A DNA stretch of 64,000 nucleotides from Mya arenaria (lineage: Eukaryota; Mollusca; Bivalvia; Myida; Myidae): the NCBI RefSeq assembly GCF_026914265.1, contig NC_069126.1:28415354-28479353 (forward strand). The letters run 5' to 3'. A program made the position numbers and the translations under genes. Under the pieces are notes generated by a model that was given only the letters and a program-made list of their open reading frames with translations, had not been told where the DNA came from and ran no database searches. This document shows positions 136 to 63,567 of this stretch, one piece after another. Positions within the stretch are counted from its first letter, which is position 1. Every line of letters starts with the position of its first letter.

Positions 136-152
136 GAGTTTTCAACCACTAG
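136..152 (+). other. 17-nt micro-exon of gene 0 tail
   Basis: A T-rich tract and tgcag precede 17 exonic bases, followed by gtaatt. It reads SFQPL with split codons at both ends. The equivalent exon is at 17205-17221 in gene A and 50532-50516 in gene B, each also 17 nt after a gcag acceptor. It restores frame between the TM exon (phase 2 out) and the tail exon (two leading bases). Confidence 0.75.
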
Positions 153-2595
153 GTAATTGCATGTAAACTGTTGCATTCCAAATGTGACCTTATCATTATT
201 TCATTTTCTGGAATGCTCTCTTTATATTATAAAGAGTTGTGTACCACAAAAACAAATGCATTGCTTCTTGCAGTATTGTCACTGATTTGTTGTTGACGAA
301 ATACCATTTTATATAACAATCAACAAACATAGCGATTTTTACTGAAGGTACTAGGTTAGAGGAATGGTAACATAACTGACAATAATTACGATGCGATTAG
401 AGATTTACAAGTTTGATTTCAAAAATGCCAGTTAGGAAATAAAAGGGTGATCATAATTTAATAAATCATTAAGATGTTCAATTCTATATAATTGTGGAAA
501 GGTCCTGTGTACGACAATCTGGCTGGTTCCAATCACGGTGATGCTCCATCTGAAGCTATTGCTGAACCGGTTGAGTACGCCTGTGTTGTTAAAAAGGAAG
601 AGAGAAAAATTACAAAACCTGAGGTACTTGAATTCCCTGTAATAAAAAAAATGTAGTTAATATATCTTAAATACCCTGTATTTAATATGTCTTAAACTTA
701 TACTCTGTGTAGTTATTTCGACTTAAAGTCCCTTTAGTTAAATTGTCATCTTGTAATTTATTTTACTTACACTTTCCGTATGAAAAATGTCTTTAACTTC
801 CCGTATTTGATAAGTCTTATTCTCCCTACACTAATAATTGTATCTTAAACTCATTGAAAGTAATATGTCTGCAACTCTCTGTTGTAATTATTACCTACGG
901 TCAGTGAACTGAATATGTCTTAAATTACTTCTCCTAGACATGCCTTAAACGTCATGTAGTGTATATGCCTTAAACGTCATGTAGTGTATATGCCTTAAAC
1001 GTCATGTAGTGTATATACCTTAAACGTCATGTAGTGTATTTGGCTTATACACCCTGTAGTGTATTTGGCTTGTACTCCAAGTAGTGTATATGCCTTAAAC
1101 GTCATGTAGTGTATTTGGCTTATACACCCTGAAGTGTATATGCCTTATACTCCTTATAGTGAATACGCCTTATACTCCACGAAGTGTACATGTCTTATAC
1201 TTCCTGTAGTATATACGTCTTATACTCCCTGAAGTGTATATGTCTTATACTCCCGGTAGTGTATATGCCTTACACTTCCTGTAGTGTATATGACTTAAAC
1301 TCCCTCTAGTTTATATGTCTATTACTTCATGTAGTGCATATTCCTTAAACCTCCTGTGCCTTAAAATTACTGAAGTTTATATGTCTTACACTCCCTGGAG
1401 TGTATATGTCTTATACTCCATGTTATATATATACCTTAAACTCCCTATAGTTCATATGTCTTGTACTCTCTGGAGTGTATATATCTTATATTTCCTGTAG
1501 TGTTTATGTCTTATACTCCCTGTAGTGTATATGTCTTTTACTTCCTGTAGTGTATATGTCTTATACTTCCTGTAGTGTATATGCCTTGAACTCCCGGTAG
1601 TGTATATGTCTTATACTCCCTGAAGTGTATATGCCTTATACTTCCTGTAGTGTATATGTCTTATACTTCCTGTAGTGTATATGTCTTATACTTCCTGTAG
1701 TGTATATGTCTTATACTCCATGTAGTGTATATGTCTTTTACTTCCTGAAGTGTATATGCCTTATACCTCCTGTAGTGTATATGCCTTATACTTCCTGTAG
1801 TGTTTATGTCTTATACTTCCTGTAGTGTATATGTCTTTTACTTCCTGAAGTGTATATGTCTTATACTTCCTGAAGTGTATATGTCTTATACTTCCTGAAG
1901 TGTATATGCCTTACACTTCCTGTAGTGTATATGCCTTGAACTCCCGGTAGTGTATATGCCTTGAACTCCCGGTAGTGTATATGCCTTGAACTCCCGGTAG
2001 TGTATATGTCTAATACTTCCTGTAGTGTCTTTGCCTTATACCCCCTATAGTGTCTATGTATTATACTCCCTGAAGTGTATATGCCTTATACCCCCTATAG
2101 TGTCTATGTATTATTCTCCCTGAAGTGTATATGCCTTATACTCCGTGTATTGAATATGTTTGAAATTCCTTGTAGTGTATAAGCCTTAAAATCCGTGTAT
2201 TGAATATGTTTGAAACTCAATGTCTTAAATTATCCACGTTGTTACTATGTTTTTACTCCCTGTGTATGTCTTAATCTCCTTGTAGTTAATGTGTTTTAAT
2301 CTCCTTGTAATTATTAGGTCTTAAACTCCATGTAGTCAAAATGACTTCAACTCAACTTCATTTGAATTTTATTTTTGAATTACCTATTACATTATCGTAA
2401 TGAATTGATGAACTTTTTTGTATGTGTTGTTCAATGTAGGCCGAGGATAGTGCACTCATCTACGCTGATCTTGATCTACCCGCAGAGGGTTCCACACGAG
2501 GGATTCCAACAGTGAATTTTGACGCCGGGACAACATACGTTTCAATTGATTTTGCTCAGACGGCTAAAATGAAAGGATCTGTGTTAGACGATTAG
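136..2595 (+). CDS. Cytoplasmic tail exons of an Ig-superfamily receptor with ITIM-like motifs (gene 0, 3' part only)
   Basis: Three exons are read: a 17-nt micro-exon 136-152 (tgcag before it, gtaatt after), 502-623, and 2440-2595 ending in TAG. Phases fit throughout: the micro-exon needs two incoming bases and leaves one, the next exon starts with two, and the last junction is phase 0. The tail carries Tyr motifs PVYDNL, VEYACV, LIYADL and TTYVSI, about 22, 23 and 25 residues apart. VEYACV and LIYADL match the ITIM consensus; TTYVSI matches the ITSM core. In vertebrate receptors such motifs recruit SH2 proteins such as SHP phosphatases once phosphorylated, so an inhibitory role is inferred. 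The same micro-exon and phase pattern follow the TM exons of genes A and B, so the ectodomain and TM of this gene should lie left of the window. An AATAAA lies at 2775. The function is inferred from motifs only. Confidence 0.78.
153..501 (+). other. Intron of gene 0
   Basis: Non-coding interval between the micro-exon and the first long tail exon. Its first 80 bases resemble the bases after the gene B micro-exon on the other strand (below 50516). I see no other element in it. Confidence 0.6.
930..2330 (+). repeat. 25-bp minisatellite in the gene 0 tail intron
   Basis: About 50 tandem copies of a 25-bp unit (gtagtgtatatgtcttatac plus ttcct or tccct), regular from about 950 to 2170 and decaying at both ends. 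It lies in the intron between the VEYACV exon and the LIYADL exon. On the complementary strand the unit matches the unit of the array at 48690-49840, which occupies the same intron of gene B. Short ORFs here are repeat artefacts. Confidence 0.93.
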
Positions 2596-3720
2596 TTAAA
2601 TGAATATCCACGAGGAAAATGACCCGATTACTTTTTGTGTATTGATGTAACGTTGCTAGATTGTTATATTACACGTGAATCACTAATCATACTTTGAAAG
2701 CTAATTGTGATATTTTAACGTAGTTCTGCTCCTTTTAAATTGGTTGACACCGATGTCACATATACTTTATATAAAATAAATGTAATCCTATACAGAGCCC
2801 TTGTTCGAACATTAATAATGCATGAGAACTGAACTGTAACAATATCATTGATTATATTCAGTTTGCTTACCATTCAATGTATATAGAATGGGTCGTAACT
2901 GATGTTGTTAAAACTAGTCGCCAAATCATTGTTCATGTAAATACTGATGAACGTTTACTATGCTACATTACAATGCTTCTTTTAACTTTGTCTTCTTTAT
3001 TGCATTGTGTTAATGTATCTCATGCAATAACGTATGATTCTGACCTTTTTTTCAACATGTTTGTAGACACTTCATTTTTTAATCCAAATTAAATCTTATC
3101 AAAATGTCACAATCTACAATTAAGATTTGCACTGAAGGCAAAGTGGAATAGCAGCAACGCCGCATTTCTACTGATTTTATATAGTTTCAAATATAATGTG
3201 TCGCACTGATATATAAATGTTTCTGTCAACATTTACGAATCGATTGACAAATTGTAAAAATTTCATGTCCTCGCATTCTTTATCGCAGTAATTTATAGAT
3301 GAGCTGTATCATTTTATAGTGTGCCGTGATTTTTCAAGGGTTTGTTTTCGGGGCAATAAAGTATGACAATGGGCGACAACAAAAACGACAATAGCTAGCC
3401 ATGCATATGCCAGTACTCTCACATAAATCTGGCATACGTATTGCATTTATCTTTATTACACATAAATCACAGGTACTGCATCACTTCTCATGTATACATA
3501 TCGCACACACGGTTGTTATCTAGCTTGCACAAAAAGCACACACATTGTTGTTATAGTTCATGAAGGAAAAACACATTCTCCGCAGTTTACTTCATACGTC
3601 GAATTCACTCTACATCCTTTTCATTCGAAGTGTCGTAAGTAGCTATTAATGAGTGTGAACACTGGAGGATAATGTGTGCATTTCCTGATTGATATCATAG
3701 TCAATTTCAAAGCAGCAAAG
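2596..3720 (+). other. 3' UTR of gene 0 and intergenic sequence
   Basis: Contains an AATAAA at about 2775, roughly 180 bases after the gene 0 stop. The stretch 3410-3600 has scattered CACACA-containing segments that look like a decayed form of the 33-bp minisatellite upstream of gene A's leader exon. No convincing coding exon is seen. Confidence 0.45.
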
Positions 3721-4937
3721 ATGGATTATATATTTTTCATTTGTAAAATCGTTTATGTTCTATTTTGTCTACCAAGTCATCAATGTGAAGGTAAGACACT
3801 TATTATTATTAAATGAGTTTTACACAAAACAATAACATCAAATGTGAAAATATAATTTACAGTTCAAGTCATGTTTTATCATTATTTCCCCTTTTCAAGG
3901 CGAGTAGGACGATGGCATACTATATTTATATCAGACTGTAAAACTCATGAGAACCGCAACAAGCAGGAATGGGTATTGTAGTAGATATGACGTTAGAGGG
4001 AAATAACGCGTAATACATTGTCTCGACTACAAATGGACTTGGGGCGCTCACCTCGTGATATGTTAATCAGCTCATAATGCTTTCACAATTGACATGACTT
4101 TTAAAACTGTCAAATATAAGAAAACCCTATTTCTTCTATCTACGTTTCATGTAGGGTTTGCTTTAAATGTTTTTATATATTATTATGTATTTGAGAAGCC
4201 GCATTCGGTTTCAAAACAAAATACCCTGATAAGTGTGCATTTTATTGTATAAACTGTTCCATACATTTTATTTATCACGTGTTTTTTGACAAAAGAAAAT
4301 CTTTCTTGCTGCATATAATAATACCCCTGAATATTTAGATAATGAACAAAATGAATTCGGAATATAATTTATGTTTTGACTGGGTCGTGTTATATTTCTC
4401 TCAGAACGAATACCATTGTGTAAATAAACACATTACGGAGATAGATGGTAACTTATAAAATTAATTGCTTTATATCTGACAATGCTAAAATGTTGTTTTA
4501 ATATTTGAGAACCTAACTTTGTAAAATATCAGTAAAATATGATCAATAAAAAATGAAAATCAGTTTATTTATGTTAGAGGTGTCAACGAGTTCGACTATA
4601 GTAGCCATACAATTTTGTAATAAACACTTATTTTCTTGTAAAATGTTGCACATTAGCTTTCTGTGATAATGATCAAATCAATCAAGGTAACAATGTGACA
4701 CACGGTTTTCCAAGTTATCAAAAACCAAATACAGATTAGGTCCGATGATGGTAGAAAAAGGAAAAAGTAATAGACACCGCCATACAGCGTCATTCAATTC
4801 AGGGTCAACAACCCCTGTCACATTGATAATACTTAACATCATAGCTGATGATAACGGTGAATACATTGCGGATTTAGGAAGCAAAATAATTATGTTCAAC
4901 ACCAAGGGCCACATTAACACTGTAGTTTTAGTGCAAG
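3721..4937 (+). pseudogene. Partial tandem copy of the gene A 5' end: leader exon plus decayed V-like Ig exon (A1)
   Basis: The leader exon 3721-3790 is intact: ATG, a hydrophobic signal peptide (MDYIFFICKIVYVLFCLP), 70 nt, donor gtaag, phase 1, exactly like gene A's 70-nt leader. The V-like exon at about 4643-4937 is ruined. Its acceptor AG has become AA, and the reading frame breaks near 4735 with TAG and TGA codons and a frameshift. Its second half still aligns with gene A in another frame (DDNGEY against DEDNGGY) and the donor remains (gtatttc). Downstream intron sequence to about 6050 also aligns with the gene A intron around 10450-11040, so the duplicated unit exceeds 2 kb. No later Ig exons follow. 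The leader could still act as an alternative first exon for gene A because its donor phase matches. Confidence 0.72.
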
Positions 4938-6479: not shown

Positions 6480-7680
6480 AAAAGCATACGCACTGCACTA
6501 CTCTTCCTTTGAAACAAACACACGCCTTAATTCAGTAATCTTTATTATACAAAAACACACACACAGTTGTAATATTTGTTGTACAAAAACACACGCACTA
6601 CAGAAATCTCAACCGTATGAAACACACACCCTGCTTAACTCTATGTTACACTTAAACACATGCACTGCAGAAATCTCACCCGTATGAAACACACACTCTG
6701 CTTTACTCTTTGTTACACTTAAACACATGCACTGTAGAAATCACACCCGTATGAAACACACACTCTGCTTTACTCTTTGTTACACTTAAACACACGCACT
6801 GCAGAAATCTCACCCGTATGAAACACACACTCTGCTTTACTCTTTGTTACACTTAAACACACGCACTGCAGAAATCTCACCCGTATGAAACACACACTCT
6901 GCTTTACTCTTTGTTACACTTAAACACACGCACTGCAAAAATCTCACCCGTATGAAACACACACTCTGCTTTACTCTTTGTTACACTTAAACACACGCAC
7001 TGCAGAAATCTCACCCGTATGAAACACACACTCTGCTTTACTCTTTGTTACACTTAAACACACGCACTGCAGAAATCTCACCCGTATGAAACACACACCC
7101 TGCTTTACTCTTTGTTACACTTAAACACACACAGTGCAGTAATCTCACCCGTATGAAACACACACTCTGCTTTACTCTTGTTACACTTAAACACATGCAC
7201 TACAGAAATCTCACCCGTATGAAACACACACTTTGCTTTACTCTTTGTTACACTTAAACACACGCACTGCAGAAATCTCACCCGTATGAAACACACACTC
7301 TGCTTTACTCTTTGTTACACTTAAACACACGCAGTGCAGAAATCTCACCCGTATGATACACACACTCTGCTTTCCTCGTTGTTACACTTAAACACACGCA
7401 GTGCAGAAATCTCACCCGTATGAAACACACACTCTGCTTTACTCTTTGTTACATTTAAACACACGCAGTGCAGAAATCTCAACCGTATGAAACACACACT
7501 CTGCTTTACTCTTTGTTACACTTAAACACACGCACTGCAGAAATCTCACCCGTATGAAACACACACTCTGCTTTACCCTTTGTTACACTTAAACACACGC
7601 AGTGCAGAAATCTCACCCGTATGAAACACACACTTTGCTTTAATCTTTGTTACACTTAAACACACGCAATGCTGTAGTCT
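6480..7680 (+). repeat. 67-bp minisatellite (dimer of a 33/34-bp unit) upstream of gene A
   Basis: About 16 tandem copies of a 67-bp unit containing cacgcactgcagaaatctca and cacactctgctttactcttt. The spacing of the tacactt motif is exactly 67 (6714, 6781, 6848). Each unit is two diverged 33/34-bp halves related to the simpler array at 7780-8565, so this is a higher-order form of one family. Minus-strand ORFs here reflect the repeat. Confidence 0.9.
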
Positions 7681-7779
7681 CTCTTGTACAATATCCCCTG
7701 CACTGCGAAAACATCTGTTGTGAAAAACACACACACACTGCAATATATTCTCTTTCAAAAAAAACACGCACTGTAGTCC

Positions 7780-8565
7780 TCCCTGTCATACAATAATAAA
7801 GGCACTGTCGTCATCTTTCTTGTACAAAAAGACACGCACTGCAGTATTCACTACTGTAGAAAAAGACATGCACTGCTGTAATGCCTTTTATACAAAAACC
7901 CACGCACTGCTGTAATGTCTTTTATACAAAAACCCACGCACTGCTGTAATGTCTTTTATACAAAAACACAAGCACTGCTGTATTGTGTTTTTACAAAAAC
8001 ACAAGCACTGCTGTAATGTCTTTTATACAAAACACAAGCACTGCTGTAATGTCTTTTATACAAAACACATGCACTGCTGTAATGTCTTTTATACAAAAAC
8101 ACAAGCACTGCTGTAATGTCTTTTATACAAAAACACATGCACTGCTGTAATGCCTTTTATACAAAGACACACGCACATCTGTAATGTCTTTTATACCAAA
8201 ACACACGCACATCTGTAATGTCTTTTATACCAAAACACACGCACTGCAGTTATCTCTTTTGTACAAAAACACACTCACTGCAGTAATCACTTTTGTAGAA
8301 AAACACAAGCACTGCTGTAATGCCTTTTATACAAAAAAGCACTGCTGTAATGTCTTTTATACTAAAACACAAGCACTGCTCTAATGTTTTTGTACAAAAT
8401 CACACGCACTGCTGTAATGCCTTTTATACAAAAACACAAGCACTGCTGTAAGGTCTTTTATACAAAACACAAGCACTGCTGTAATGTCTTTTATACAAAA
8501 ACACACGCTCTGCTGTAATGTCTTTTATACAAAAACACACGCACTGCTGTTATGTCTTTGATACT
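7780..8565 (+). repeat. 33/34-bp minisatellite upstream of gene A leader exon
   Basis: More than 20 tandem copies of a unit containing acacaagcactgctgtaatg and tcttttatacaaa. It ends about 280 bases before the gene A start codon. The array at 58580-59600, upstream of gene B, is the same family on the other strand. Confidence 0.92.
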
Positions 8566-8848: not shown

Positions 8849-11800
8849 ATGGGATATAAAAGTGTCATTTTTAAAACTGTTTATATTTTAGTTTTGTTAC
8901 CTTGTCTACATTGTCAAGGTCAGATAAAAAAAAAAATTAATGACATGTACACATTTAATGTGAACACATATCGTTTTTTAAGTCGTCTTTTATCATTTGA
9001 TTCTATGACACATTTGACGAGGGCATACGAGTATTGTATTTATATCAAACTCTAAAAATCATAATCATGATAAAACAAACATGCATGAATGGGTGTTATC
9101 GTTTATATGACCTTAGAGGGAAATATGACTTAATACTTTGCATCGACTCCAAATATAATGGCATCTCGTGAGATGTAAAAGGGAGCATACATATTTTTCT
9201 CGTTATTTAGTTTTTGTATTTAAATTATTGTTTGCCTCAACCTAAAACAGAATAGCGGCGCTTATCTCAGTGTAAAATGCTTATAAGGTCATAGTAGCTT
9301 TCAACTTTATATGTAAAGCACTTGACATATTAAAGCTGACAATTTCAATATGAAGTATAAAAACGAACCTTTTCTACTTTAAAAATTTGCATAAATGTAT
9401 ATGTATTTAAAAAGCCGTACTTGGTTTCAAAACATTACACCCTGACTACACATACATTCAATTGTATAAATTGTTGCATACGTTTTCTTCATCAAATGTT
9501 TTACATAGTGTCGAGTTATATTTGTCTTTGAAAGAATGCCGTCGTTTATTTAAAGAGAACAAGAAAGATTGATGTTAATAACTTGGACACATCACTTGGT
9601 GTTTTATGTTTAAAAAAACGATAAGCAATTGATTAGGAAATAACAGTACATGTATATTAATCATTGCTCGTGTTAAAGTTGTTAATAATATTGCCTATTG
9701 CAAAATATCTATTACATGTGTTAATAATGTCCTATTTGCTTTGTAGTATGTGGAACATTGCGGCTTATAAATCCTGAACAAATCAATCGAGGTGACGATG
9801 TGAGACTCGAGTTCTCAAGCACATATATAAGGAATGATACAAGTTTAGTCAGATGGTGGAAATATCTCCAAAAGAAGCCGAATCCCATTGATACCACCTT
9901 GCAGCGTTTTCACATTGATGGTCAACAAGCCCGTGTCATATTGACAATACATAACGTCACAGATGAGGATAACGGTGGTTATACAGTGACTTTAAACAGC
10001 GTACAGTGTTCACCACCGAGGACTACTTTAGTTACAGTGAAAGGTATTTCATTTCCAGACTTAACCAAATTTCTAAATCAAAACTGCAATTATATTTGAT
10101 TTATTTCATATATGTTAGCAAAGGTAATGTTTTCAGCGAAATGCATAACGTTTATATTTTTCGAGAATAATTAAAAACGGAAAATATTCTTTTTTCCTAT
10201 TTGCTTTAATATTTTAAACTAACTGGAACTTGTTGGTGCCCGAAATTGCTTAAATATATGTCTTTACCTTAGCGTAGAAGTATTGTTTAGTTATGGCTTT
10301 CATAAGATCAGTTAATATAGAAAATACAAGGCATGGTATTTTTTATGCAGAGTAGAACAGAATATATATATCGTGTACAAATGTGTAAATGATTAAAACA
10401 ATGAAAACACCATCTTTCGACAACCCATGACTATAACCTACCGTTCAAAACTTCTTGTTTCTTTATGGCAACTGTTCGGTATTGTTTATCTGTCAAAGTC
10501 AGTCGTTTTAAAACCGCGTGGAAACGAGCTTGTATTATAACTTCGTTTCTCCTTTGTGTTTCTTTCTTATTCGATTAATCTACTTAAGCGACCTAATTCT
10601 TATAAATTACCGAAACAAGAAAGTAAATCGTTTGTTCGCAATGAGTCGTAATACGTTAGCCGGTCGATTTAAAGACTTTATATATTGTTCTTAAAAGATA
10701 TGTAAGTTGTTTATATGAAATGATAAGTTGATCACTATTGGCATTATATGCGAACAAATGGGATAGCAGTATTTTATTAAAACACACGCCTTCAAATACC
10801 ATATTGATCTGCGTTTGACGGGCCTTTGTATTTGTTAAATCGCCAATTTATTGGCCGTTCACATTGAATTTGAAACGTGTGGTGTGTATGAGTTTTGTGT
10901 GACGTAAGTGTCATATTTTTTAACAGTAATGTACATAGTACTCGGATAGTTTTCATAATACGTTTCTGCTTAGATTACTTTACATTCTAAAAATTGGTGC
11001 AAAACTGACGATGCATGGATCACAAGAAAACAAGAGCTTTGCATGCAGGCTCGCCCTTAGTCAAGAAGAACAAGTCAACATTTATTTTGCCCTGACACTT
11101 TATCATAAAAATGGAGCTTGTTTCGTTTGCTTAAGATTCGTATTCAGTCATGGGACAATTTTTTTAATAAATGTTCAACATCTTTTTTTAGAGACTACAA
11201 CACCACTAAGGTATGAGAGACTACCCCTTGTAAGATTTTCTCGATAATCATAAACAAGCGTATACCAACATAATCTTAATTGCGTTTAAGTTTATACAAA
11301 TCCAGAGTATACATCAGTTATTATTGTACCTAAATAAATAGAGCAGGAAACAATATGTCAAAAACGGACAAAATATACATTCACGTAGTCAAATTGTGTC
11401 AAGTTCTTAAACGTACATAAATCGGCGGTAGGGGCTCAATATGTTTAATTGAAAGGGGTTTTTCTTGTCAGTAAACAGAAATGATTTCAACCATAAATAC
11501 CTCCAAATAAACATTAACCTATACATATTGCGAGTTCCTGAGTCGTTAACTCAAATATGACTGTCATTATTAAACACTGTCTATTAGTTTAACACTTAAA
11601 TGAAATAGCTACAATTGATATACTTTATAATGTGTTATATCAAGCAATTTCATTCTCATTGTTTTTTCTTATTTCTTGGCAGAGCCAGTCTAAGAACATT
11701 ATGAAAAGTTCTTGTTTAAAGGGGGTATTTGTGCGAAAATTAGATTAACACATGTCCGCTTCTGATTAAAGAGTACTAGGATGTTAATGAAATGTACATT

Positions 11801-18486: not shown

Positions 18487-21400
18487 GCCGATGAAGGACA
18501 GTTCCATGTTGCATGCAGGTAAATTAGCCAACTATGAAACTTGGATTAAATGTCCACCACATTCTGTAACGTGCAGAACCCATATTCTGGACGAGCCGAT
18601 TCTGGGTCAAGGTCACAGATTAAAACCTTGGTTCGAGCCATACGTTTCATGTCTAATCCACACCTCGTATTTTACAGGCACGCCTGCTGACGATCAACGT
18701 CATCGTTAATTGTAAAAAAAGAAAATCGAGTAATATATTTTATGTCCGCTTTACATCTCAGATATCCCTTGAATGGGGTAAAATATAACCCAAATTCATA
18801 CAGCATGCATATCTGTTTAAGAAGAAAGATTTAAGTCGTAGGTTTAATGTCGTCTTTATATCTCCTTATCCTCGTGATGGATTTTAATGAAACTCTGGTC
18901 AAAATTCTATCATCTGGAGACAATATGAAGAAACCCATTCTCAGGTGCGCCGGCTTAAGGTCAAGGTCAAACACCGTTTAGACCTGATATTACAGGCGAA
19001 CCGGCTCAAGGCCAAGGCCGGAGTTTAATGTGAAAGGTTTGAGCCATATGTGTTAGGTCTTTTCTATATATCATAAATCAAATGAAGGATTTTGATAAAA
19101 TTGTGATAAAATGTTCATCTTATCAAGACAGCGTGCAGAAGCCTTATTCCAAACATGCTGCCTCAATATCATGATCAGTGTTCAAGGTCAACATTCGAGC
19201 CATATTGTTCATGTTGACTCTTTCTCTTCTTAACCCATTGAAAGTTTTCTTTACACGTAAACATAACAAACAGGCATGTTAGACATCTTAACAAAGCATT
19301 CCACGTCCGATTTCAGTTGAAATAAAAAAAATATATATGCAAAGTCCAACAATCTTATCTGCAATGCACTTTCGGTCATCTAGTTCAAATAATAGTTATC
19401 CGTCATTTATCTGTACACGACATATTTCCACACATCGTTATCATGCAGATGCCATACTGAATAAACTTTAACTTTTTTCTTGTATTGTTAAGGAAATGGA
19501 CAAACCTTGTTATTAAAGCTGATCAATTTGATTCCGAGCATTTTCAGTCAATGCTGTTGCGAAAGTTACCTTTATTATCATCGTCTTTTATCATACTGCA
19601 AGAAGCGTAATTTTTTTTATTACAAGCCGACGTAGAAAATCAAGTCCAAGCTGAATGTTTTAATTACCTACAGAAACTTCTACTAAACTGCAACCAACAC
19701 TGAAAATAGTACAGCAAAATGACTCAGTACCTTCCTGTCGACTGACAGCTGACTGACAGGGGCGTAACTGGACTTGAATTGACGTGAAGGCCCAGTATGC
19801 TATTGGATCACGCGAATTCACGCTCAACATAAGCCCTGTTTCATTTTGCAGTTTGAAAATATAGATAAAAACATGTTTAAATGCTCTACATGTATTTAAA
19901 TTTACTCACGACCATATGAACGGATTTGTAAAAAATGTTAATACTCCATTTAATTTGTTTCATTACATGTAATCATAACTTGTTCAACTACTGGATTACA
20001 CTATGGGGTAGTTTGTTAAATTACATTAGGTATAAAACACTTCAATTGGTTTCATAAACACCAACTTGGACCTAGTAATTTCAATTATTGTCAGGATTTA
20101 ATAATCTCTGCTTTAGTGATAACATGCACTCATTCAAGTTGTGCTCAATTACATTGATACATTATGTAACTGAATAAAATCACAATTATTGAAATCATAT
20201 TGATACATCTCAGGACCAATTTACTTAAAAATGAATAATTACTTTAACTTATGGGTTAATATGCGATCTGATATGGAGTATACCTGGCAATGGAACCATA
20301 TGGTTTCATGCGCCCCATCGGGTCGCCTAGTACCCTCGTAACGAATATATCACGTCAACAACCTGTTTACATTGACCAATTTATTAATTGAAAAGTTTGC
20401 ATCCTTTCATCGGAATCGTTAAATAGACGCCATTTTGGTACGATATAAAGATTGGTGACCCAATAAGAACACACATTAGGTCACCACGTGACCAGTCCTG
20501 GACAAACGGCGTTGTGTCATTTATGTTTGATGCGTCATATACGTGTTTATGAAAATGAGTCTGGCGTCATTTCTATAAAAATGTATAAAACAATTATATA
20601 TATTAATGCTACTGTGTCGTTAATGTAAATTGTAAATTTGTCCATGTTTAAATTGTTTAGTTATCTTGTTTGTATTTTATATTTGTTCTTCGTATATGCT
20701 TTTCTTTATTTATGGCAGATAACAGGGATACAGTTCATCGAAGGAATTGCTGTACACATTGAAAGCATCCTTTTTGACCTGGAAACGTCTTATAACCTAA
20801 ACCAATTTAACAAATATTGAGAATCGCACAACAATTTACTATTTATGGTCGGAAATTGAACAACATAGCCAGGTTCAATCATTCGTTTTTTTTTGGTCTT
20901 TGTATTGATACTTAAAGACTTTATTATGGTATGGTTTCTTCATTGTTGTGTTTTGTAAAATTGGTGCCATTTAACAAGACTATCGTTAAATGAAAGTTTA
21001 TATAACAGTTGACATTATAATATACATTTTGTATTTCAATCAGTTTTGATGCTGTAGTTTGTCTTTATTTCTCGTGTATGTTTGTATCTTGGTATGGAAA
21101 AAAGCGCTTTACAAAAGACGAACACTTTATAAGTCTTAGTATTGTTCTTGTTCTTAATTGATAAGCAAATAGCCCCTTCCACAGTAGTCTGAATAAAAAT
21201 TTCGTTATTTCAAGTCACATGTCGAATGAAATAATAACTTTGTTCGTCAAAAAAATGCTGAAAGAATGTTTGGTAGTAAACAAACATGACTGTTTTATAT
21301 CAAAATACCATAACTATCATTGAATTAAGGAAATTATGCAGATATTATGATTCACGACGTAATAGTATTCATGTCCACATAAAAAATCCGATGAATAAGT

Positions 21401-27895: not shown

Positions 27896-30014
27896 TTCAT
27901 TTACAACACAGTCAACGCCTGCCTTTAATACTCTTACTGCTACTACTCTATATTTTACTTAAACATGTTTCACACCAGCATTTTCGGATTGATTGGAACT
28001 GTTCATTGACAATTACCCAAAGTCCATTACGGTCAGTGCCTGCCTTAGATAGTTTTTATTCAATGCTTGTGCTCAATTGTATTTAAGAGAAAACCAAGCT
28101 TTATTGAAAGTGCATTAAAACCTTAGGATGGACGCTCGATTTATTATGTGAAGAAAATAGTTTCTCCTTGTAATCAACCGAAATATTCTTGAAATATATG
28201 GTAAAAATAGCCTAGCGGTCAAAACTCCTTATTTAAAACGCAGCTTACAAGTTTCCCGACATATTATGAGTAGCAATGTATGATTGTACGCTTTATTTTA
28301 TTATATCTGAACCATCAACTTGTTGAGATGTTAAGCGGATTCACCGATGTCGACATCACTGATGAATGTCGAATCCAGTGCTTTATTGTAGTGTCAAATT
28401 TTGCAAGAAATATAAATTGACAATAAATGCCATTGTAACCACAACATATTGGTAAACGGAATTTATTTCAATTAAACGATAAGTGTCAGTTCCTGTCAAA
28501 TGACAGTGCCAATGCCTGTATTGTTTGTGTATATTGTAAATAACCTTATGCTTTATATGTGTCCATAACGTTTGTGTGTTTGTTTGTTTTTGTTTTTTGT
28601 TGTTATTTTATATGTCTATACTTTGTATTGTATTGCATATATTGTTGTATGTGTATATAAACTATACTTCTTTTCACATTTAGAGGATAAACAGAATAAA
28701 CTAAACTAAACTTTAATAATACAATGTAAATCTCCGAAATAAGCCCAGTAGGAAACTGTTTGATAAAAAATCAAGTTTAAAGGCTAATGAGCAAATGAGA
28801 CTGAAAGATAGACAGAACACGATCGAAGACAGCACACATATAATTTTGCGTTGAGATAACAGAACAGTTAATGTTGGGGTAACCGCGTTGTAGCAGTCAG
28901 TGAAACACGGGTTCACATGGTGCCCGAACAACCACGCAGTTGCCTCTATATCTATCAAAATGCAACCTTTTTCACACCGTTACGCTCTTAATACCGAACG
29001 CCAGGCAAGTGAATTTATTTTGTTATTAGTATTACGATGTTATCATTGTAGCATTAAGTGGTCAATTCTAATATTATCTGACTATAAGCTTACTGATCGC
29101 TATTCACGTTACGCTCTTTCAGGCAAATCGTTCATTAGTTTCTCTCCATGTGTCATCACTACCACCTACGTGAATGACAGCTTAAGCATTTTACGCCTTA
29201 TTGACTTGAACCAATCAACTAAGATCAATTTTGCGTTTTCATTTGTTGTAGTAGGTCATAAATGAGATTTGTTTAGTTTTAAAGAACAACAATATATCTA
29301 CTTAGCAATAAAACACTTGAACAGCTTACTAAAAACATGGAAAACACGACTGAGGGGAAAGAAATAATAATTGTATGTGGTAGTAAGATAGAGGGAGTTA
29401 AATAAACAAGATTTTTTACTCAACTGGTCACAATTACTCTCATCGCACTGAGAAACACACAATTTGTTTTGACGTGAATGCAGTTTTCATCTTGTTCAAA
29501 GGTCCACGTTGGTGAAAATCTGTTTTGATATTGATGGTTATTTATCCTTCATTACAACTTGCATTACGTGTTTTAAAACAGTCGAAAGCAGACCTTTGAT
29601 TATTATTTTGGACGATAATTCACACAGTCTTATTAAAGCCTTTGCTCCCTGATGTTAGAAATAGAAAAAACAAAACTTTTTCAATAAATTTTAAAGACGA
29701 CAAAAGAAGAAGAAGAATGTATCACAAGATATTTCAAACTTAATGTTATACTTGTATGTATATACAAAACGTCATTGGGTAAGCAAAGAGTACGTAAGTT
29801 TCACCATAAGTACGCCGTTATTTGTGTTTATCATTATCTAAGAATACCGTTCATCTTAGTATTTTGGTTGCTATACACATGAAACTTCGTAGAAATGTTG
29901 GTCACCATACATTATTTCTTTATTTTGATATATATTCACAAAAAGAATACTGCTTAGGTAAAGGCTATGTGTGCTTTACCCAGTATAGCACTTTTCATAC
30001 AATGGCCCTGACAA
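27896..30014. other. Intergenic; possible transposon 3' end near 28330-28715
   Basis: Around 28480-28715 a T/GT-rich stretch ends in aataaactaaactaaac, a simple tail of the kind seen at the 3' ends of non-LTR elements. No reverse transcriptase sequence precedes it, so this is weak. ORFs at 28713-28958 and 28900-29265 show no family signature. Confidence 0.3.
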
Positions 30015-48102: not shown

Positions 48103-48207
48103 TCATTTCAATCTGTTGTACATAACGAACTTCACTGTTGGCTTTCTTCGTGTGGAATCCTCTGCTAGTAGATCAAGATCAGCGTAAATGAGTGCTCCAT
48201 CCTCGGT
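48103..48207 (-). pseudogene. Vestigial ITIM-type tail exon of gene B
   Basis: Minus strand: an acceptor (ttag) at 48208-48211, then 34 codons and TGA. It starts TEDGALIYADLDL and is the counterpart of gene 0's exon at 2440-2595. The LIYADL ITIM is intact, but the sequence diverges after the STR motif and lacks the TTYVSI motif. The exon before it (50156-50065) ends in TAA, so this exon can be translated only if alternative splicing skips that stop. Confidence 0.65.
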
Positions 48208-48689
48208 CTAAATGGTGAAAAATATGTTGAAAGGTATCAATCACATGTTAAAGAGCAACTGCTACGAATGTTTGTTTAACTCATTATTCAAAGATGGACA
48301 AAGAAATGGACATAAGCATGAAACAAACTGATCGAGTGACTAAAAACCAGCATAATAATAATAATTATCGATACTGACCAATCATATTTCGTAGTTGGTC
48401 ATCAATTCCATACGTTTTGTGATATATAATTTAATATTTTATTAATATTTCAGGGAATTTAGGAGATACAAACTGGGGTGACTAAAGCATTTTCAAAATA
48501 GGGAGTAGAAGATATATTATATACAGGGTGTTTTAGCCATATTCACAAAGCGTTAAAGACACATTAACGACACTGATGGAGTTTAAGTCATATTCACGAC
48601 AAGTCGATTAAAACAAATCAACAAGAAGCAATTTATGACATATTGAGAACAGGGAGTTTTAGCAAACATATTCATAAAATGGAGTTGAA

Positions 48690-49840
48690 GACATATTCAC
48701 TACAGGTAGGTTAGGACATATTCACTACAGGGAGGTTAGGACATATTCACTACAGGGAGGTTAGGACATATTCATTACAGGGAGGTTAGGACATATTCAC
48801 TACAGGGAGGTTAGGACATATTCACTACAGGGAGGTTAGGACATATTCATTACAGGGAGGTTAGGACATATTCACTACAGGGAGGTTAGGACATATTCAC
48901 TACAGGTAGGTTAGGACATATTCACTACAGGGAGGTCAGGACATATTCACTACAGGGAGGCTAGGAAATATTCACTACGGGGAGGTTAGGACATATTCAC
49001 TACAGGGAGGTTAGGACATATTCACTACGGGGAGGTTAGAAAATATTCACTACGGGGAGGTTAGGACATATTCACTACAGGTAGGTTAGGACATATTCAC
49101 TACAGGTAGGTTAGGACATATTTATTGCAAGGAGGTTAGGACATATTCACTACAGGTAGGTTAGGACATATTCACTACAGGTAGGTTAGGACATATTCAC
49201 TTCAGAGAGGTTAGGACATATTCACTACAGCTAGGTTAGGACATATTCACTACAGGGAGGTTAGGACATATTCACTACAGGTAGGTTCGGACATATTCAT
49301 TGCAAGAAGGTTAGGACATATTCACTTCAGAGATTCTAGGACATATTCACTACATTGAGGTTAGGACATATTCACTACATTGAGGTTAGAAAATATTCAC
49401 TACAGGGAGGTCAGGACATATTCACTACAGGTAGGTTAGGACATATTCACTACAGGAAGGTAAGGACATATTCACTACAGGGAGGTAAGGGCATATTCAC
49501 TACAGGGGGTCAGGATATATTCACTACAGGGAGGTTAGGACATATTCACTTCAGGGAGTTAAGGACATATTCACTTCAGGGATGTTAGAACATATTCACT
49601 ACGGAGAAGTTAGGACATATTTATTACAGGAGGTGTAAGACATATTCACTACAGGGAGGTTTGGACATATTCACAACAGGGATGTTAGGACATATTCACT
49701 ACAGGGAGGTTAGGACATATTCACTACAGGGAGGTTAGGACATATTCACTACATAGATGTTAGGACATATTCACTTCAGGGATGTTAGGACATATTTACT
49801 ACAGGGAGGTTAGGATATATGAACTACAGGGGGGGGGGGG
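48690..49840. repeat. 25-bp minisatellite in the gene B tail intron
   Basis: About 45 copies of a 25-bp unit, acagggaggttaggacatat plus tcact, with scattered variants, ending near a G run at 49830. Orthologous in place and related in sequence (complement strand) to the array at 930-2330 of gene 0. Confidence 0.93.
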
Positions 49841-50515
49841 GTTTAGGAGGTGTTTAATATAGGAAAATTAAGACATAACCACTGCAGGAAAACAATTTTA
49901 CTTCAAGAATATAAGACATATTCACTGATGAGAGTGTAAAACAAATTATCTGCAGTGAGTGTATATAAAATTATCTACAAAAAGTTTTAGCCATTGTCAC
50001 TATAGTGCTTTTCAAGACTTATCAACATTCGTACCTGAGGTTTGGGAGCCTGTCTCACTGCCCTTTAAACAACACAGGAGTGCTCAACCGGTTCAACAAT
50101 AGCTTCAGTAGGAGCATCACCGTGATTGGAACCAGCGGGATCGTTGTGATCAGGATCTTGTCAAAAATATGAATATTTACTTCAGTACTTTCTGAATCCA
50201 TTACTTAATTCATTGGCATTTTAGTTAACTGTTTTGCTTCATAAATTGACACTGAGTGTTTTTTATCAAACCAATACTGTTGTCAGAAATAATACAATTC
50301 ATTCCAGTAACTTAGTACCTGCAACAGCTATCCCTTTTTGGTAACATGTTACCGAAAAGAAAAAGTTATTAATCAACAAAGCATCATTGACATTACCATC
50401 AGATGCAATGCTTATGTTCTTTTCGTACACAAGTTGTTAAATTGTAAAGAAAGCATTCCGAAAGAATGAAGAATGAAAGGTCACATTGGAGAGGCAACAG
50501 TTTGCATGCTATTAT

Positions 50516-50532
50516 CTAGCGGATGAAAACTC
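50516..50532 (-). other. 17-nt micro-exon of gene B with lost donor
   Basis: Follows ttttttgcag on the minus strand and reads SFHPL with split codons, as in gene 0. The base after it is A, giving AT where gene 0 has GT. If skipped, the TM exon joins the tail exon out of frame and meets TGA at the third codon. Confidence 0.65.
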
Positions 50533-52130
50533 CTGCAAAAAACATGAAGGTATAAATGATTAGATTTGTGATTAAACAATCATTGTGTCATTATCAAAAA
50601 CAGTGTTAGTCCCTGACATTAACTGTGTACATTCCTTTATCAGTGAATACATCGTTTGATCCGCGGAAATTTCAGTCATTGATAGTCTTAAGGGTCTCAC
50701 ATACAGAACTGGTGGATGTTTAAACTATGTTGGAATTAAGTAAATATTTATGAAGAGACACAAAACAGCAACTGGCAGATACCACATATTTTAACAGATT
50801 TTTTTAAATCGAAGCCGAAAACCATCTAAAGTGTGAGGTTTCCAATAACAGTGAAGAAATTGTTCAAATTTAAAGCTTCTTTTGACGGACAATAATGATG
50901 CTGTAATATGCTATCTTTATACATTTCAAAAAATATCAATTTCTTTAATAAATGACACTATAAACGTGATTGGGTAATTTTAAATTGAGAAGAACGTACA
51001 GTTTTCGCTCCTGTATATGCATATTATCAGAACGTTCTCTCGTCGAAGTTTCCTTACGTGTTTTCCATACAATCACGCAAATGAATGCTATTATAACGAT
51101 AAGTACAATCGCCAGACACCCGCAAATAATTCTGATCAGCATGGAGGAAGAGATGACTTTACCAGTGGATCGTGACGTAGGCATTGGAATCGGTTTTGTT
51201 GGTTCAGAAGTTTTATCTACAATAAATGAAATTTAATACATGTGTCCTTTATATTGCAACCATAATCTCCAAAAAGCTATCAAGATAATGAAAACATACA
51301 TAGCAAAAATGATAAAAAGCGTGGACATTACTCATTTTGCAGCTTAATACGGGCGTTTTCATTGAAGTTGCAGAGTTTGTTTTCGGTCTTTTTATAGCCG
51401 CTGCTATTAACCCAAACGCCAATCCTACTGTTATTTTACATTAGAATTCCCGAAGAATCTTTGAAATTAATTGGTAAAGAAATGATTTTATTTTTACGCG
51501 AATCGTGAAAAAAAACATAAAATCATATCACTCACGTTATAATTTGAAGTTTTGTAAACAGTAAGTATTTGTTTTAGGTTTTAAACTTTTAAAGTTTTCT
51601 TTCTTTTTTCGGTTCTATAGCGAAGCACTTAACGAGATTAATTACCGCCTCCAAGTTAACATTCCAGCAGAGTTTCATTAACTTGTAAATACCTTTGACC
51701 AAGATGAACACAACACTTTCCTCCAAACCAATCGAGTTACTCGCAATGCACGTGAAGTTATGGCGACCAGTGGATTGAAATTGCATGTTAAGTTCTAGGC
51801 TGACATCAGTTCTTTTACCTGAATAAGCAAGTGTTAGGTATACATATATAATATGATGGCATATTTTCATTCAGACTAAATTTCTATCTTTTGACAAGCG
51901 AATGGCCATACTGCTTTGTACCTGTATATTATGTTATGCTTTAAAGCAAACAAATCAGACTTAAACAAGTACCTATGTTATTCGGAGAAGTGTTTGACCA
52001 TTCGATCTTAGCTGCTGGGTTTGCGTCACATTGACATAAAACGCTTATACTGTCACCCACATTGTTCGTTATTGAGGAACTGGGAGAAAAACTAATGAAC
52101 GGCTTGTCTGAAAGATAACATATTAAACAT

Positions 52131-53230
52131 ATGTCTCAAATCTTGATAAACACACTTCACATGTATATCAATTAAACGCCATGTTTAAATAAATTGGTAT
52201 ATTTTTTTATAAATATCAGTGCTTAGTGTATGGCACTAGGTGAATGTGGTCGTGTTCCACTTTGCGTGATATATTATTTCAAATGTATTAACTATTGGTG
52301 TAAACTTTTGCATATACAAACCCATCGCAACCCAAAACATTGTTACGTTATGTTAAAACGTCAAACGATATTAAAAGAAATAATTGGGTAACAAACGTTA
52401 GAGAAATATTAGTTCAGTATGGCTTTGGTTACAGTTAGATAATGGTTTTGTTTTTAGACAAGTGGTAATACTTATTTTTTATTGTTACAAATTGCTGATT
52501 GATTTTAAAATTTGTCTAAAAGTTGTATTAAGCAATGACACCACTGTATTGTAACTTATGACGTATATAAAATTGTATGTCTTTTGTACTGAATATTTAC
52601 ATTCGTACTTTTCTGAACGATAAAACTTGTGTTCATTTTGCATGAACCGGTCGACATTTCCTGACCTTTGTAGGTTTGGGTTTGCAAGAAAGCAACGCTT
52701 TGATTGGGCGCTGGTGAATCACCGTACGTAGAGATATCTTACTATGATCTCCTTTTTGCTAAATATAGCACGGATCATGTATACAAACAACTGATAATAT
52801 GGCACTGTAAATGTGTCGGGTTTTTTTTCTAAAAGTTTTGACACGTAAAATGTCGAATAGCATTTCTTCATCATGATAATGATATAATGGTATTCCTCAT
52901 ATTAAAGAAGAAAATTACAAAAAAAATCATAATAAATTATCAAACAACATTTAAATACGTGAAATGATTGGAACCTGTCAAATTGTCATGTATTTTTTAA
53001 GTAAGAACAATCGTCTTAAAGTGTCCACTCGGGACGACTTGCACATCATTAAACTATTAAACTTTATGATGTAAACATTCTCTTTATGGTTTTCACTGCT
53101 CATTATTAGTATTTTATTGATACATGATAAACACGCATTGCTCTCTGTTTTGAACATGGGTGAATCAATATTACTATGTATATGTAGTTTTGATCAAACT
53201 TGCCATTTAAATATATTTAAAATGAAGAAC
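52131..53230 (-). other. Gene B intron where the Ig4 exons would be expected
   Basis: Sits between the Ig3 and Ig5 exons. Gene A has two Ig4 exons at this place; here no sequence resembling QCTSD, RWNIS or LSCYLEN is seen on the minus strand. Confidence 0.55.
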
Positions 53231-54538
53231 TTATCTAACTGAAATATACTTACATAAAACATTAATTGTAGAAGTCGAGCATTTCGTTTTCATTTTCCTT
53301 GTGTTTTTGTAATACTCTTTAAACTCAACGCAACAATATATACTCAAAGTGTTGTCATATCGGCTGAAAGGTTTTTCTAGGATTGTTTCAGCATTAACTG
53401 TTTTTATCGCCTTCAGATTTTGAAAAGCTGTTGCTTGTATTGTAAGATGTTGAATTGTACATGAAGTAGAGTCTTGGCTCTGGTCTGGCATTGAAGGTTT
53501 GATATAAAATAGTTGCATTTTTCCCTTCTTTAATTGAGTCCGGCAATGTTATTGTAGGAATCGATGGTTTTCCTATAAGTAAAGATATGCTTGTAAATTT
53601 ATGTTCGTATTAGTGTGACAATTGCGCTTTTTATCAGTTTTCTCATCTCATAATATTGCATTACCATTTTTGATTTACTGGTATGTCTTTTCAAGTTGTA
53701 ATAAATACTGTTGATATCGAAATATGCCTCGGTCTTAATCGGTCAAAGGAATCATTTAAACAATTATGACTCTCTACATAATTATAATAACGTCGTATCA
53801 AGAAATTTGCCTAAAAGCAGTCTGCCAAGATTCACCGTCACGATTAATTGAAAAATAATATTACAAATGACAATGTCGCCAAATAGTTTTGTCTTTTGAG
53901 TAGAAACACTTACTTAAAACTAATGCATTTTGTGATGTTTGTTTGTTTAAAAACTCGTGGCCTTATACCTTTGCTTTCTCTTTTCGATATGAGTTTAAAC
54001 ATCGCTACATTACACTGTTTCTGTTTCTTTGTTTTCCTTATCATATACTGTAACAGTATTTTCTTGTTTTACAATATGATTGATTTAAAACCACTTTCGC
54101 AGAACGATAAGAGTGATTGATACTGTTTCAGGGTGTTGGCCATCTCTAGTAGCCTCGCAAGTAACTGTATGATCTGTCTCTTCTTCACTCGGCATGTAGT
54201 CATAAACTGCTCGATACCATGGAGAGCCGTCCATGTTACCATTGGGTACCTTTCGACCATTTTGCTTGAGTATCAATTCCATGTCCTTCAACACATTATT
54301 ATTTAACTCTAATACAGTTTATGGTATCACCAAAAATTCGCAAAGTATTAGTATGGTTCCTTAGGTTTAAATAAATTTTGGTAGAATCGTCTTAACGTAT
54401 AAACATCAAAATTGTGTTCGCGAATTGCATTCAACTGAAAAAATACACTTATTTATTCAGTGCCATGCGATGGTAACCCTCTATTTATCATGAAGATCGG
54501 TTCAGTCTTCTTCATTATATGCAAATTATGCAGATGAA

Positions 54539-54540
<2 letters not shown>

Positions 54541-54570
<30 letters not shown>

Positions 54571-54572
54571 TT
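54541..54572. repeat. (AT)n microsatellite
   Basis: A short AT dinucleotide run within the gene B intron between the two Ig2 halves. Confidence 0.9.
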
Positions 54573-54828
54573 ATTTTCCTAATTTTGCGTTTACTGTTAT
54601 GGATTTTTGTTTGCAATTCCTTTCAACGATAGTGGCATATCTTTAAAATGCTTTTGAATTAATATAAAAAACGAAAATTGTGTACCGTGTCTTTCTTGCT
54701 GATTCCAAACACAAAACATTCCACTTTCATGTAGACGCCAACCGTTCCGACCAGGCATTTTTCACAACCCAACTCTGGGATTGAAACGTTGTCAGGAAAT
54801 TGGGGAATTGCTGAAAGGACATTTGGCT

Positions 54829-56555
54829 CTTAAATGTAAAAAAGCGATTACACAATGAATAAATCACAACTTACATTTCAAATAAGTGCATAATTGTTAT
54901 GTCGCTACACCTTTATCATATCTTGGTCAGAAAGGAAAATTAAAAAAAAAACACATCAAAGTTCTGTTCAGTCAAAAGCAAACATCTTCGCACAGATTCA
55001 TCCTTTGGGAAAAAAACCCTGTGAAGCTTCATTTTCATTTTCAGATTTGCTCTTTCAAAAAATGAGCAATAACAATGAAAATGTATGATGTAACACATAA
55101 TGAATTATATCAATTGTAGCTATTTCAGTTCAGTGTCAAACTATCAGATATGGTATTCTTTTCCTTTTCATTATTCTTTAACAATGAAACTTATATTTGC
55201 GTTATTAATTTGGAAACTCGCAATGTGTATAGGTTATTTCTTATCTTGAGATATATATGGTAGTTAAACGTTCAAGCCTAGCGTTAATGACACTGTATAT
55301 AATGGTTGAAAGCATTGTCTTTACTGACAAGGCAAAACCCCATTCAACCGAAAATATTTCGCCCCTACCGCTGTTTGATGCACACGTAAGAACTTGACAC
55401 AATTGACTACATTTAGTTATTTTTGGCCTTTGTTTGGACACATTGTTTCCGTCTCTGTTTATATTAGTTAAATAAATTGCCGCTGATGTTATTGATAAGT
55501 ATTAACTCAACCGCAATTAAGAATATGTTGTTAGTCGCTTGTTTTTCAAAGAACTCTTACAAAGGTGTAGTCTCTGATAACTGACAACCACGGTAGTGTT
55601 GTAGAATCCATAAAAATGATGTTGAACGTCAATTAAAAACAGTTTCAGACAAGTCACATAACTGAAAAATAATCTTAAGACTAACAATATAAAGTCAATT
55701 GTTTTATGATAAGTTGTCAGGCAAAAATAAATGTTGATTTGTTCTTCTTGACTAAGAACGAGTGTTCATGCAAAGCCCTTGCTTTTTTGTGTTTTTGTTG
55801 TGACTAATGCATCATCAGTCTAACTCCAAACGACATTAAAACAAACGTGTGATCCAAGGCCACCCGAAAATACATCTGACCCTACCGTGTGTATATTAAA
55901 TTGTATTTTTTTTTGAAGAATACTGAAAAGAAAATGTAGTTTAAAACCGTTACGGTTTCACGCCAAGATGGAATTTTAAAATCAAATATCAGCTTATATG
56001 TTTGTTAAAAACATTTATTAAGTCGTAAAATCGACAGGTTAAACTAAACAATGTATACAAACGACTTACTTTCTTGTTTTAGTAGTTGATAAACAAGGAT
56101 AAGGTCGCTTAAACAAGTTCATTGATAGCTTGTGTCAATTAGTTAGAAGCATAAAAGAGATACCAAGTCATATATCTAGCTCGTTTCCATGCATTATTTT
56201 GAAAGCAAAGTAAAACAGATTCGTTAAAATCCCGCACATTGAATGTCGTATATTTGCCGATTTTATGGAAGCCATAACAAAACAATACTTATACGTTTAG
56301 GTAAAGACTTATATTATATATATTTAAGCAAATTTGTGCAGCAAAAGGATTTTTTTAGAGTAAATAACAAACCAACATGAATAAATTTTGAACGAGTTAT
56401 TTTTTTCCTTTCTGAATTTAACTCTTAAAAATACATTACAAATTTCTCTGAGAACCTGCACTTTGCAAACGTAAAGTGGGTTAACCAAATATAATAATTA
56501 TTAATTATAATTGCAGTTTCGTTTTGAGGATGATTAAAGTTTGGATTCGAATTAC
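54829..56555 (-). other. Gene B intron between V-like Ig and Ig2
   Basis: Counterpart of gene A intron 2. No exon recognised; ORFs at 54894-55088 and 55241-55441 have no support. Confidence 0.5.
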
Positions 56556-57673
56556 CTTTCACTGAAACTAAAATCATCGGTGGTGAACACTGTATGCTTA
56601 CTAAAACCGCAGTGTATTCACCGCTATCATCAGTTGTGACGTTATGTATTGTCAATGTGACAGTGGCTTGTTGAACATCAATGTGAAAACGCTTCAAGCT
56701 GGTATTGATGCGAATCGGCGTGGTTTTGAGATATTTCCACCAACTGACTAAACTTGTATCATTCATTATATATTTGCTTGACAACTCCAGTCTCACATCG
56801 TCTCCTCGATTGATTTGTTCAGTATTCAAGAGCAGCAATGTCCCACATACTTCAAAGCAAATAGACTGAATTTACAAATGCAATAAATATCTTTCAATAT
56901 GCAATATCATTTACACTTTTAACACGAGCAATGATTACACAGTTAATGTCTAATCAACTGCTTGACTTTAATAAACATTAAACACTAAGCGATGTATCTA
57001 AGTTCTTAACAGCGACCTTTGTCTCTGTCTTTAAATAAGCGACGGTATTTTCCCAGGACAAATATACCCCCGTCTACAATACTTGATAAAGACAACGTAT
57101 ATAACAATTCATACATTTGAATGCATGTGTACCCTGTGTGAAATGTTTTAAACCAAGTGTGGCTACCAAAAACATATTTATTTATACCAGTATTTAAAGC
57201 AATATGCAGAAATGGATCGTTTTATACCTCGTTTTATACCCCTTTTTGACATTTTTAGTTTAAAGCATCATGCCAAGTGTAAGATAATATTTGACCTTGT
57301 GCATTTTACACTGAGATGAGGGCCGCCATTATGTGCTCTTCTTTACATGTCACAATATGCCATTATATTTGTAGTCGATGCAAAGTACTAAGTCATATTT
57401 CCCTCTCAGGGCATATAAACGATAATATCCATTCCTGCTTGTTACGTTTCTCATGATTATGATTTCTACAGTTTGATATAAATACAATATGCCGTCGTCA
57501 AATATGTCATTTCAAGAACCAAATGATAAATGACGATATAAAATAAACAATCTATTTCCACATTTTATGTTTTTCTTATCATAGAATAAAATGTTTGTCT
57601 TACCTTCACAATTAAGACTAGGTAGCAATAATAAAATGTAAACAGTTTCATAAATGGAAAACGTATATCCCAT

Positions 57674-63499: not shown

Positions 63500-63501
<2 letters not shown>

Positions 63502-63566
<65 letters not shown>
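63502..63566. repeat. (TA)n microsatellite
   Basis: An uninterrupted run of about 32 TA units inside copy 2 of the segmental duplication; absent from copy 1 at about 47300. Confidence 0.97.

Positions 63567-63567
<1 letters not shown>

Follow-up and report, generated by a model that had tools for sequence, protein, structure and literature searches.

An earlier note, made from the sequence alone, had read three exons at the start of this locus as the tail of an inhibitory immunoglobulin (Ig) receptor, probably from a mollusc. The question raised by the locus is to which gene these exons belong and whether a tail of this kind could serve inhibitory signalling. The window, i.e. the whole stretch of 64,000 nucleotides that was analysed, corresponds to positions 28,415,354-28,479,353 of contig C5 of the bivalve Mya arenaria, and the family protein P0005 matched one receptor in it (copy C) in eight stretches at 97-100%, so that the molluscan origin was confirmed. 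We found that the three exons form the cytoplasmic tail of a single-pass Ig superfamily (IgSF) receptor that belongs to a cluster of such receptors in this clam.

Tail exons and state of copy A

The gene at the start of the window, copy A (LOC128234984), ends in three tail exons on the plus strand: a 17-nt microexon that encodes SFQPL (136..152), a 122-nt exon that carries PVYDNL and VEYACV and is 90% identical to P0001 (502..623), and a 156-nt last exon with the stop codon (2440..2595), in which LIYADL is followed by TTYVSI with a gap of 25 residues. All three exons have AG/GT borders and compatible phases, in agreement with the earlier note; the pyrimidine tract of the exon 2 acceptor is weak. 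The joined tail reads SFQPLG-PVYDNL-...-VEYACV-...-LIYADL-...-TTYVSI-...-DD and a stop (translation SFQPLGPVYDNLAGSNHGDAPSEAIAEPVEYACVVKKEERKITKPEAEDSALIYADLDLPAEGSTRGIPTVNFDAGTTYVSIDFAQTAKMKGSVLDD), with tyrosines at residues 9, 31, 54 and 79, i.e. at spacings of 22, 23 and 25. An ITIM is defined as [SIVL]xYxx[IVL] and an ITSM as TxYxx[VI]. When the sequence was re-read and matched to these motifs, the four motifs of the earlier note were recovered, with VEYACV and LIYADL as strict ITIMs and TTYVSI as an ITSM. The same exon joins are present in the NCBI models of the paralogs P0001 and P0002 (...PSFQPLGPVYDNL...), the 17-nt microexon has recognisable homologs in copies C and D, and a single transmembrane (TM) exon lies in frame upstream of the tail in copy A and its paralogs. 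At least two ITIMs together with one ITSM were obtained in 29 of 200,000 shuffles of the 97 tail residues; based on these shuffles, the paralogs and the selection described below, a random open frame with chance motifs was rejected. Comparison of the tail with PDB sequences gave no matches. A 25-bp minisatellite (940..2209, no strand assigned) lies in the intron that separates tail exon 2 from tail exon 3, and since a related one occupies the same intron of copy D (48690-49831), it is probably older than the duplication of the two copies.

The earlier note had proposed an Ig-like ectodomain to the left as a check of its reading, and indeed the gene continues beyond the window with D2, Ig3, Ig4, Ig5 and TM exons. 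The Ig5a exon contains an in-frame TAA (C5 28413841-28413843), and among the 19 genome-wide Ig5a matches no other contains a stop. Additionally, a deletion has removed the splice donor after Ig5b, which is kept in copies C and D, in gene E (see below) and in four other genes. The NCBI model of LOC128234984, P0013 (297 aa), reads like copy A, starts at an internal Met and ends at the Ig5a TAA. No signal-peptide or Ig1 exon was detected for copy A at E 1e-3 leftward to 28.30 Mb, and in a more permissive search for the signal peptide (28.385-28.410 Mb) no match was better than E 0.66. Based on the TAA, the lost donor and the end of P0013 at the TAA, the view of copy A as an intact receptor was rejected. 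The TM exon and the three tail exons have kept their frame and splice sites; due to the TAA and the deleted donor, the tail does not stand in frame with its own ectodomain in the reference. In the reference, the gene of copy A is thus probably defective, and because of the TAA, the deleted donor and the lack of a detected signal-peptide exon it is unlikely that the reference allele yields the tail as protein. The lesions may stem from a null allele that segregates or from an error in the assembly.

A sister gene, E (C5 28521232-28533497), has a TAA of its own in Ig5b and a last exon that is 98% identical. As equal-scoring duplicates exist elsewhere in the assembly, we considered that A and E might be retained haplotigs. 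This is disfavoured, since their respective short-tail neighbours are distinct: copy C matches P0010 at 76% over 78% of residues 345-458 and at 69% in the last exon. A tandem duplication of A and E is tentatively preferred. The duplicates in question are SH2 matches of equal score that recur at distances of about 1-1.5 Mb on C2, C4, C13, C15 and other contigs and may be retained haplotype duplicates.

Receptor copies in the window and the cluster on C5

Copy C (LOC128234983; 8849..18486, plus strand) is a short-tail receptor, and no stop was found in any exon read. It consists of a signal-peptide exon (8849-8918), Ig1 (9747-10043), two D2 exons (about 11916-12058 and 12892-13079), Ig3 (13530-13841), two Ig4 exons (14134-14336 and 14977-15091), two Ig5 exons (15736-15870 and 16416-16544), a TM exon carrying EEYADL (16778-16973), the microexon (17205-17221), which reads LYMQPL where the long class reads SFQPL, and a last exon encoding GAVHVITDGSQSPDGQQTQTYDCVK and a stop (18410-18486), all on the plus strand. 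In NCBI isoform X2 an alternative last exon (20719..20762, plus strand) encodes DNRDTVHRRNCCTH and a stop. The same isoform starts at 3490-3633 and not at the signal-peptide exon 8849-8918, and a 95% copy of that start is located at C5 28534405. A combination of copy C with the long tail was rejected, as copy C has its own short tail and copy A its own ectodomain; the composite of the two was used as a search probe only.

The other copies in the window are relics or broken. Copy B (3721..4909, plus strand) is a relic that retains a signal-peptide exon at 3721-3789 together with a first Ig exon that has decayed and contains stops (4644-4909), and an isolated Ig5 exon relic is found at 29125..29226 on the plus strand. 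Copy D (48106..57673, minus strand) is a long-tail pseudogene, in which Ig3 has a frameshift (53255-53573), the microexon has lost its donor (50516-50532) and tail exon 2 contains a stop and has lost its tyrosines (50035-50154); tail exon 3 (48106-48207) has kept LIYADL and is divergent beyond it, and no match was found for the Ig4 exon. Copies A, B and D are thus broken or relics, and copy C is without a stop.

Protein searches with the composite tail region, a six-member alignment and the short-tail region returned 6, 17 and 3 proteins, respectively, giving 17 distinct family proteins, all from Mya arenaria and contig C5. No relatives were found outside Mya by these searches, which need shared 5-residue words and, for the alignment search, scored the 7,995 best candidates. 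In the genome (1,216,080,610 bases in 18 contigs) we found 19 matches to the Ig5a exon, 13 to the long-tail last exon and 5 to the short-tail last exon, all within a 588-kb cluster at C5 28.309-28.897 Mb; these counts are lower bounds, as pseudogene D falls outside the 13 and two more Ig5a-like relics with stops exist (28324173 and 28350260). The usual architecture is a signal peptide, an optional Ig1, an Ig-like D2, three further Ig domains, one TM, the 17-nt microexon and one of two tails. The ectodomain of P0004 has only Ig1 and D2. Pfam matches above the cut-off were Ig_3 and C2-set_2 in P0003 and P0005 and C2-set_2 in P0012, and the model of copy C also has Pfam Ig domains above the cut-off; NCBIfam returned no families for three proteins.

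An Ig ectodomain and the long tail occur together in the whole NCBI models P0001, P0002, P0003 and P0006. Ig1 is absent from the models P0001, P0002 and P0006, which beyond the tail are known from NCBI models alone. For LOC128234980 (P0003; 28353543-28368042), which has a whole NCBI model, every exon was matched in our exon-by-exon survey of C5 28.30-28.59 Mb (3,146 of 290,000 bases N). Two further long-tail genes, at 28329470-28344091 and 28483612-28497226, had every exon type matched and no stop in the matched pieces. NCBI splits the first into P0011 and P0017 and starts the second, P0014, only at Ig4, and because they are not modelled whole these two genes may be broken too. On the plus strand, four of the five short-tail last exons come after a long-tail last exon (long/short pairs 28417793/28433759, 28533348/28556852, 28771883/28784963 and 28813925/28835466), an order of positions that would fit the duplication of a long-short pair. 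In P0007 (LOC128234347, 1039 aa), a short-tail receptor seems to be fused to the ectodomain of another receptor with no TM or tail in between, either by read-through or by an annotation error.

Tail classes and conservation of the tyrosine motifs

The earlier note had described a tail with four motifs. Among eight aligned long tails (an alignment without copy D and without P0016, which is another model of the P0004 gene), VEYxxV was present in seven and both LIYADL and the ITSM in all eight, so that three of the motifs are widespread in the family. The fourth did not hold as a general pattern: PVYDNL was found in three tails and PDYNDL in one, and four tails had no such motif. The short tails (P0007-P0010 and P0012) contain neither an ITIM nor an ITSM and follow the pattern EEY(A/T)DL-x7-YM(Q/K)PL-GPV(Y/H)VT...TY(D/E)S(V/L)E. 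They do not fit an ITAM (YxxL/I-x6-12-YxxL/I), as the residue at +3 of the second tyrosine in Y(A/T)DL-x7-YM(Q/K)PL is a proline.

The 13 genomic last exons of the long class all encode TxYxxI and the 25-residue gap, and 12 of them have the ITIM tyrosine, which is His in L013. The dN/dS of the motif codons was 0.09 compared to 0.61 elsewhere in these exons, and 0.04 compared to 0.57 without L013; these are Nei-Gojobori counts summed over all pairs, which are not independent, and the values are indicative. Among 465 placements of two 6-codon blocks, seven, including the real one, reached as low a dN/dS. In the last exon of the eight long tails, 11 of 12 motif columns were invariant compared to 11 of 38 others (p = 1.7e-4, with shared descent ignored). 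The residues adjoining LIYADL are conserved too. Taken as indicative, these figures point to purifying selection on the motif codons.

The ectodomains of the two classes are related to a varying degree. The highest long-short identities were 0.79-0.83 for D2, Ig3, Ig4 and Ig5 but 0.61 for Ig1; among long-long pairs the closest reached 0.97, and some long-short Ig5 pairs were as low as 0.47. In trees without P0008 and P0009, which are isoforms of P0007 (and, for the TM tree, also without P0005 and P0010), the Ig5 of P0012 grouped with the long type (split support 1.0) and its TM with the short type (0.997). The combination of a long-type Ig5 and a short-type TM in this predicted model suggests that exons may have been exchanged between the tail classes.

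Proposed signalling and comparison with known receptors

We consider it moderately probable that the long-tail family consists of checkpoint-like inhibitory receptors that would act through SHP-2. PD-1 and BTLA are known from vertebrates and have one Ig domain, and no sequence relation to the clam receptors was seen beyond the motifs. In both of them, as in the clam, 25 residues separate the ITIM and ITSM tyrosines, and the BTLA ITIM (IVYASL) has Ala at pY+1 like LIYADL, a residue described as favouring SHP-1 docking in human cells (PMC8631942). VEYACV also has Ala at this position. A candidate partner is encoded at C9 63.174-63.194 Mb, where two SH2 exons are followed by a PTP exon; compared by eye, this was the one place among the matches listed that combines SH2, SH2 and phosphatase exons on one strand (63.174-63.189 Mb). 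SHP-2 was the best match of the two SH2 exons (E = 1.6e-38), whereas the PTP exon alone matched receptor PTP alpha slightly better (2.3e-15) than SHP-2 (4.2e-15). Based on the 25-residue gap, the pY+1 Ala and the SHP-2-like gene, we infer that whole long-tail members would mediate inhibition by SHP-2. Such a member, presumably expressed on haemocytes, would be clustered through its Ig ectodomain by a putative ligand, and a Src-family kinase would then phosphorylate the ITIM LIYADL and, 25 residues on, the ITSM TTYVSI; in most long tails VEYxxV would provide a further ITIM. Both SH2 domains of the clam SHP-2 would dock on the phosphorylated pair, and the docked phosphatase would damp activating signals. 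The short-tail neighbours, with their similar ectodomains and TYDSV-type end, may be activating or decoy partners. Support for the inhibitory logic of the earlier note comes from the tandem ITIM/ITSM, which selection has maintained throughout the family, and from the presence of an SHP-2-like gene, whereas copy A itself is probably broken.

Alternatively, the receptors could serve adhesion or guidance like those of the SYG-2/irreC-roughest/nephrin type, with a tail that recruits Grb2, Nck or PI3K adaptors and not an inhibitory phosphatase. NCBI names one family member irregular chiasm C-roughest protein-like, the family profile ranks titin, SYG-2 and neurotrimin chains over any immune receptor, and PVYDNL contains a pYxN site, which we take to be of the Grb2 type. 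However, among the four motifs this one is conserved least, being absent from half of the eight tails, and the ITIM/ITSM pair is conserved most; furthermore, a duplicating 588-kb cluster with pseudogenes and without detected relatives outside Mya is unlike a conserved guidance receptor, and we regard this reading as rather unlikely. Scavenger or uptake receptors were also considered, since all four copy A tail motifs (YDNL, YACV, YADL and YVSI) fit YxxPhi, an endocytic sorting signal, which would be read by AP-2, and YADL or YTDL is kept near the membrane in the short tails. The YxxPhi signal does not depend on position -2, which is L in the ITIM and T in the ITSM, or on a constant distance between motifs, but all 13 last exons preserve these -2 residues and the 25-residue gap, which makes uptake as the explanation quite improbable. 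It is equally doubtful that the tail in the window is non-functional pseudogene sequence and the finding without further meaning. The lesions of copy A, the end of P0013 and the fact that copies B and D of the window are broken as well are in line with this idea, but the intact frame and splice sites of the TM and tail exons, the nearly identical tail of paralogs with whole models (P0001, 86% in exon 3) and the possible origin of the lesion as a segregating null or assembly error argue against it, and the family-level finding holds either way.

The inhibitory reading brings vertebrate paired receptors into comparison. Because copy C, the stop-free receptor of the window, has a short tail without ITIM or ITSM, the clam cluster may resemble such systems, with putatively opposite signalling of the two classes. 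The CEACAM1/CEACAM3, KIR, SIRP and Siglec genes lie in clusters of IgSF genes whose ectodomains are alike and whose tails are of two kinds, which in the paired CEACAMs are ITIM/ITSM and ITAM-like tails (PMC5112662). In contrast, the short tails of the clam are not canonical ITAMs, and the best first-Ig identity between tail classes (0.61) is lower than that given for paired Ceacams of Xenopus (80-93%; PMC5112662).

Membership in the Siglecs was rejected even though P0012 and P0017 carry the NCBI name 'sialic acid-binding Ig-like lectin 7'. The sialic-acid-binding Arg of Siglecs lies in strand F of the first Ig domain, and we took it to be Y+3 of DxGxYxxR; in all 11 first-Ig matches, from 9 of the 17 proteins and including some isoforms, this position is K, S, T or D, so that the Siglec likeness suggested earlier was not borne out in this one feature.

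Botryllus and Hydractinia are colonial animals, and their FcoR and Alr families are allorecognition families, whereas the clam cluster has no known role of this kind. Like the clam cluster, the fuhc locus of Botryllus comprises many linked IgSF loci, the FcoRs, with ITIM or hemITAM tails, and the Alr genes of Hydractinia are candidate allorecognition genes with such motifs (PMC12065747); the FcoRs differ in having a sushi domain. Among molluscs, CgSiglec-1 and CgIgIT2 of the oyster are also Ig receptors, with a place in immunity: blocking CgSiglec-1 with antibody increased phagocytosis and apoptosis (PMC5877582), and CgIgIT2 has five Ig domains, a TM and an ITAM (PMC11999971). As presented in these sources, they are single genes without a cluster or a tandem ITIM-ITSM. 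The clam cluster is probably a convergent instance of the known ITIM-receptor type. In our searches of the open-licence PMC literature we found no report of the C5 receptor cluster, and the word immunoglobulin does not occur in the main texts of two papers on transmissible cancer in Mya.

These results place in a protostome a cluster of checkpoint-style receptors with the ITIM-25-ITSM arrangement, the motif codons of which appear to be under purifying selection. Receptors with such motifs have been described at allorecognition loci of one cnidarian and one tunicate (PMC12065747), and the Mya example would make it testable whether signalling clusters of this kind arise repeatedly. Cancer passes between animals in Mya arenaria (PMC10663159), and a receptor-based self-recognition in bivalves, which a transmissible cancer would have to evade, would become testable as well. 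It could be speculated that the C5 cluster is a missing-self complex of PD-1-like long-tail and tandem short-tail haemocyte receptors, in which variation or loss, such as the nulls of A and E, bears on the acceptance of contagious cancer, but we hold this to be very improbable.

The window also contains other features. An 839-aa open reading frame (42938-45457, minus strand) with hydrophobic stretches had no Pfam or NCBIfam match and has partial copies at 22041-24137 and 60079-60989. In addition to the minisatellite of copy D (48690-49831), large minisatellites are located at 6587-8564, 22408-23014 and 58700-59552, and a diverged segmental duplication on the plus strand links 44804-47453 and 60094-63849. 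Two open frames on the minus strand (35936-36751 and 39666-40022) match rhodopsin-type GPCRs (Pfam 7tm_1) and are probably exons of one gene.
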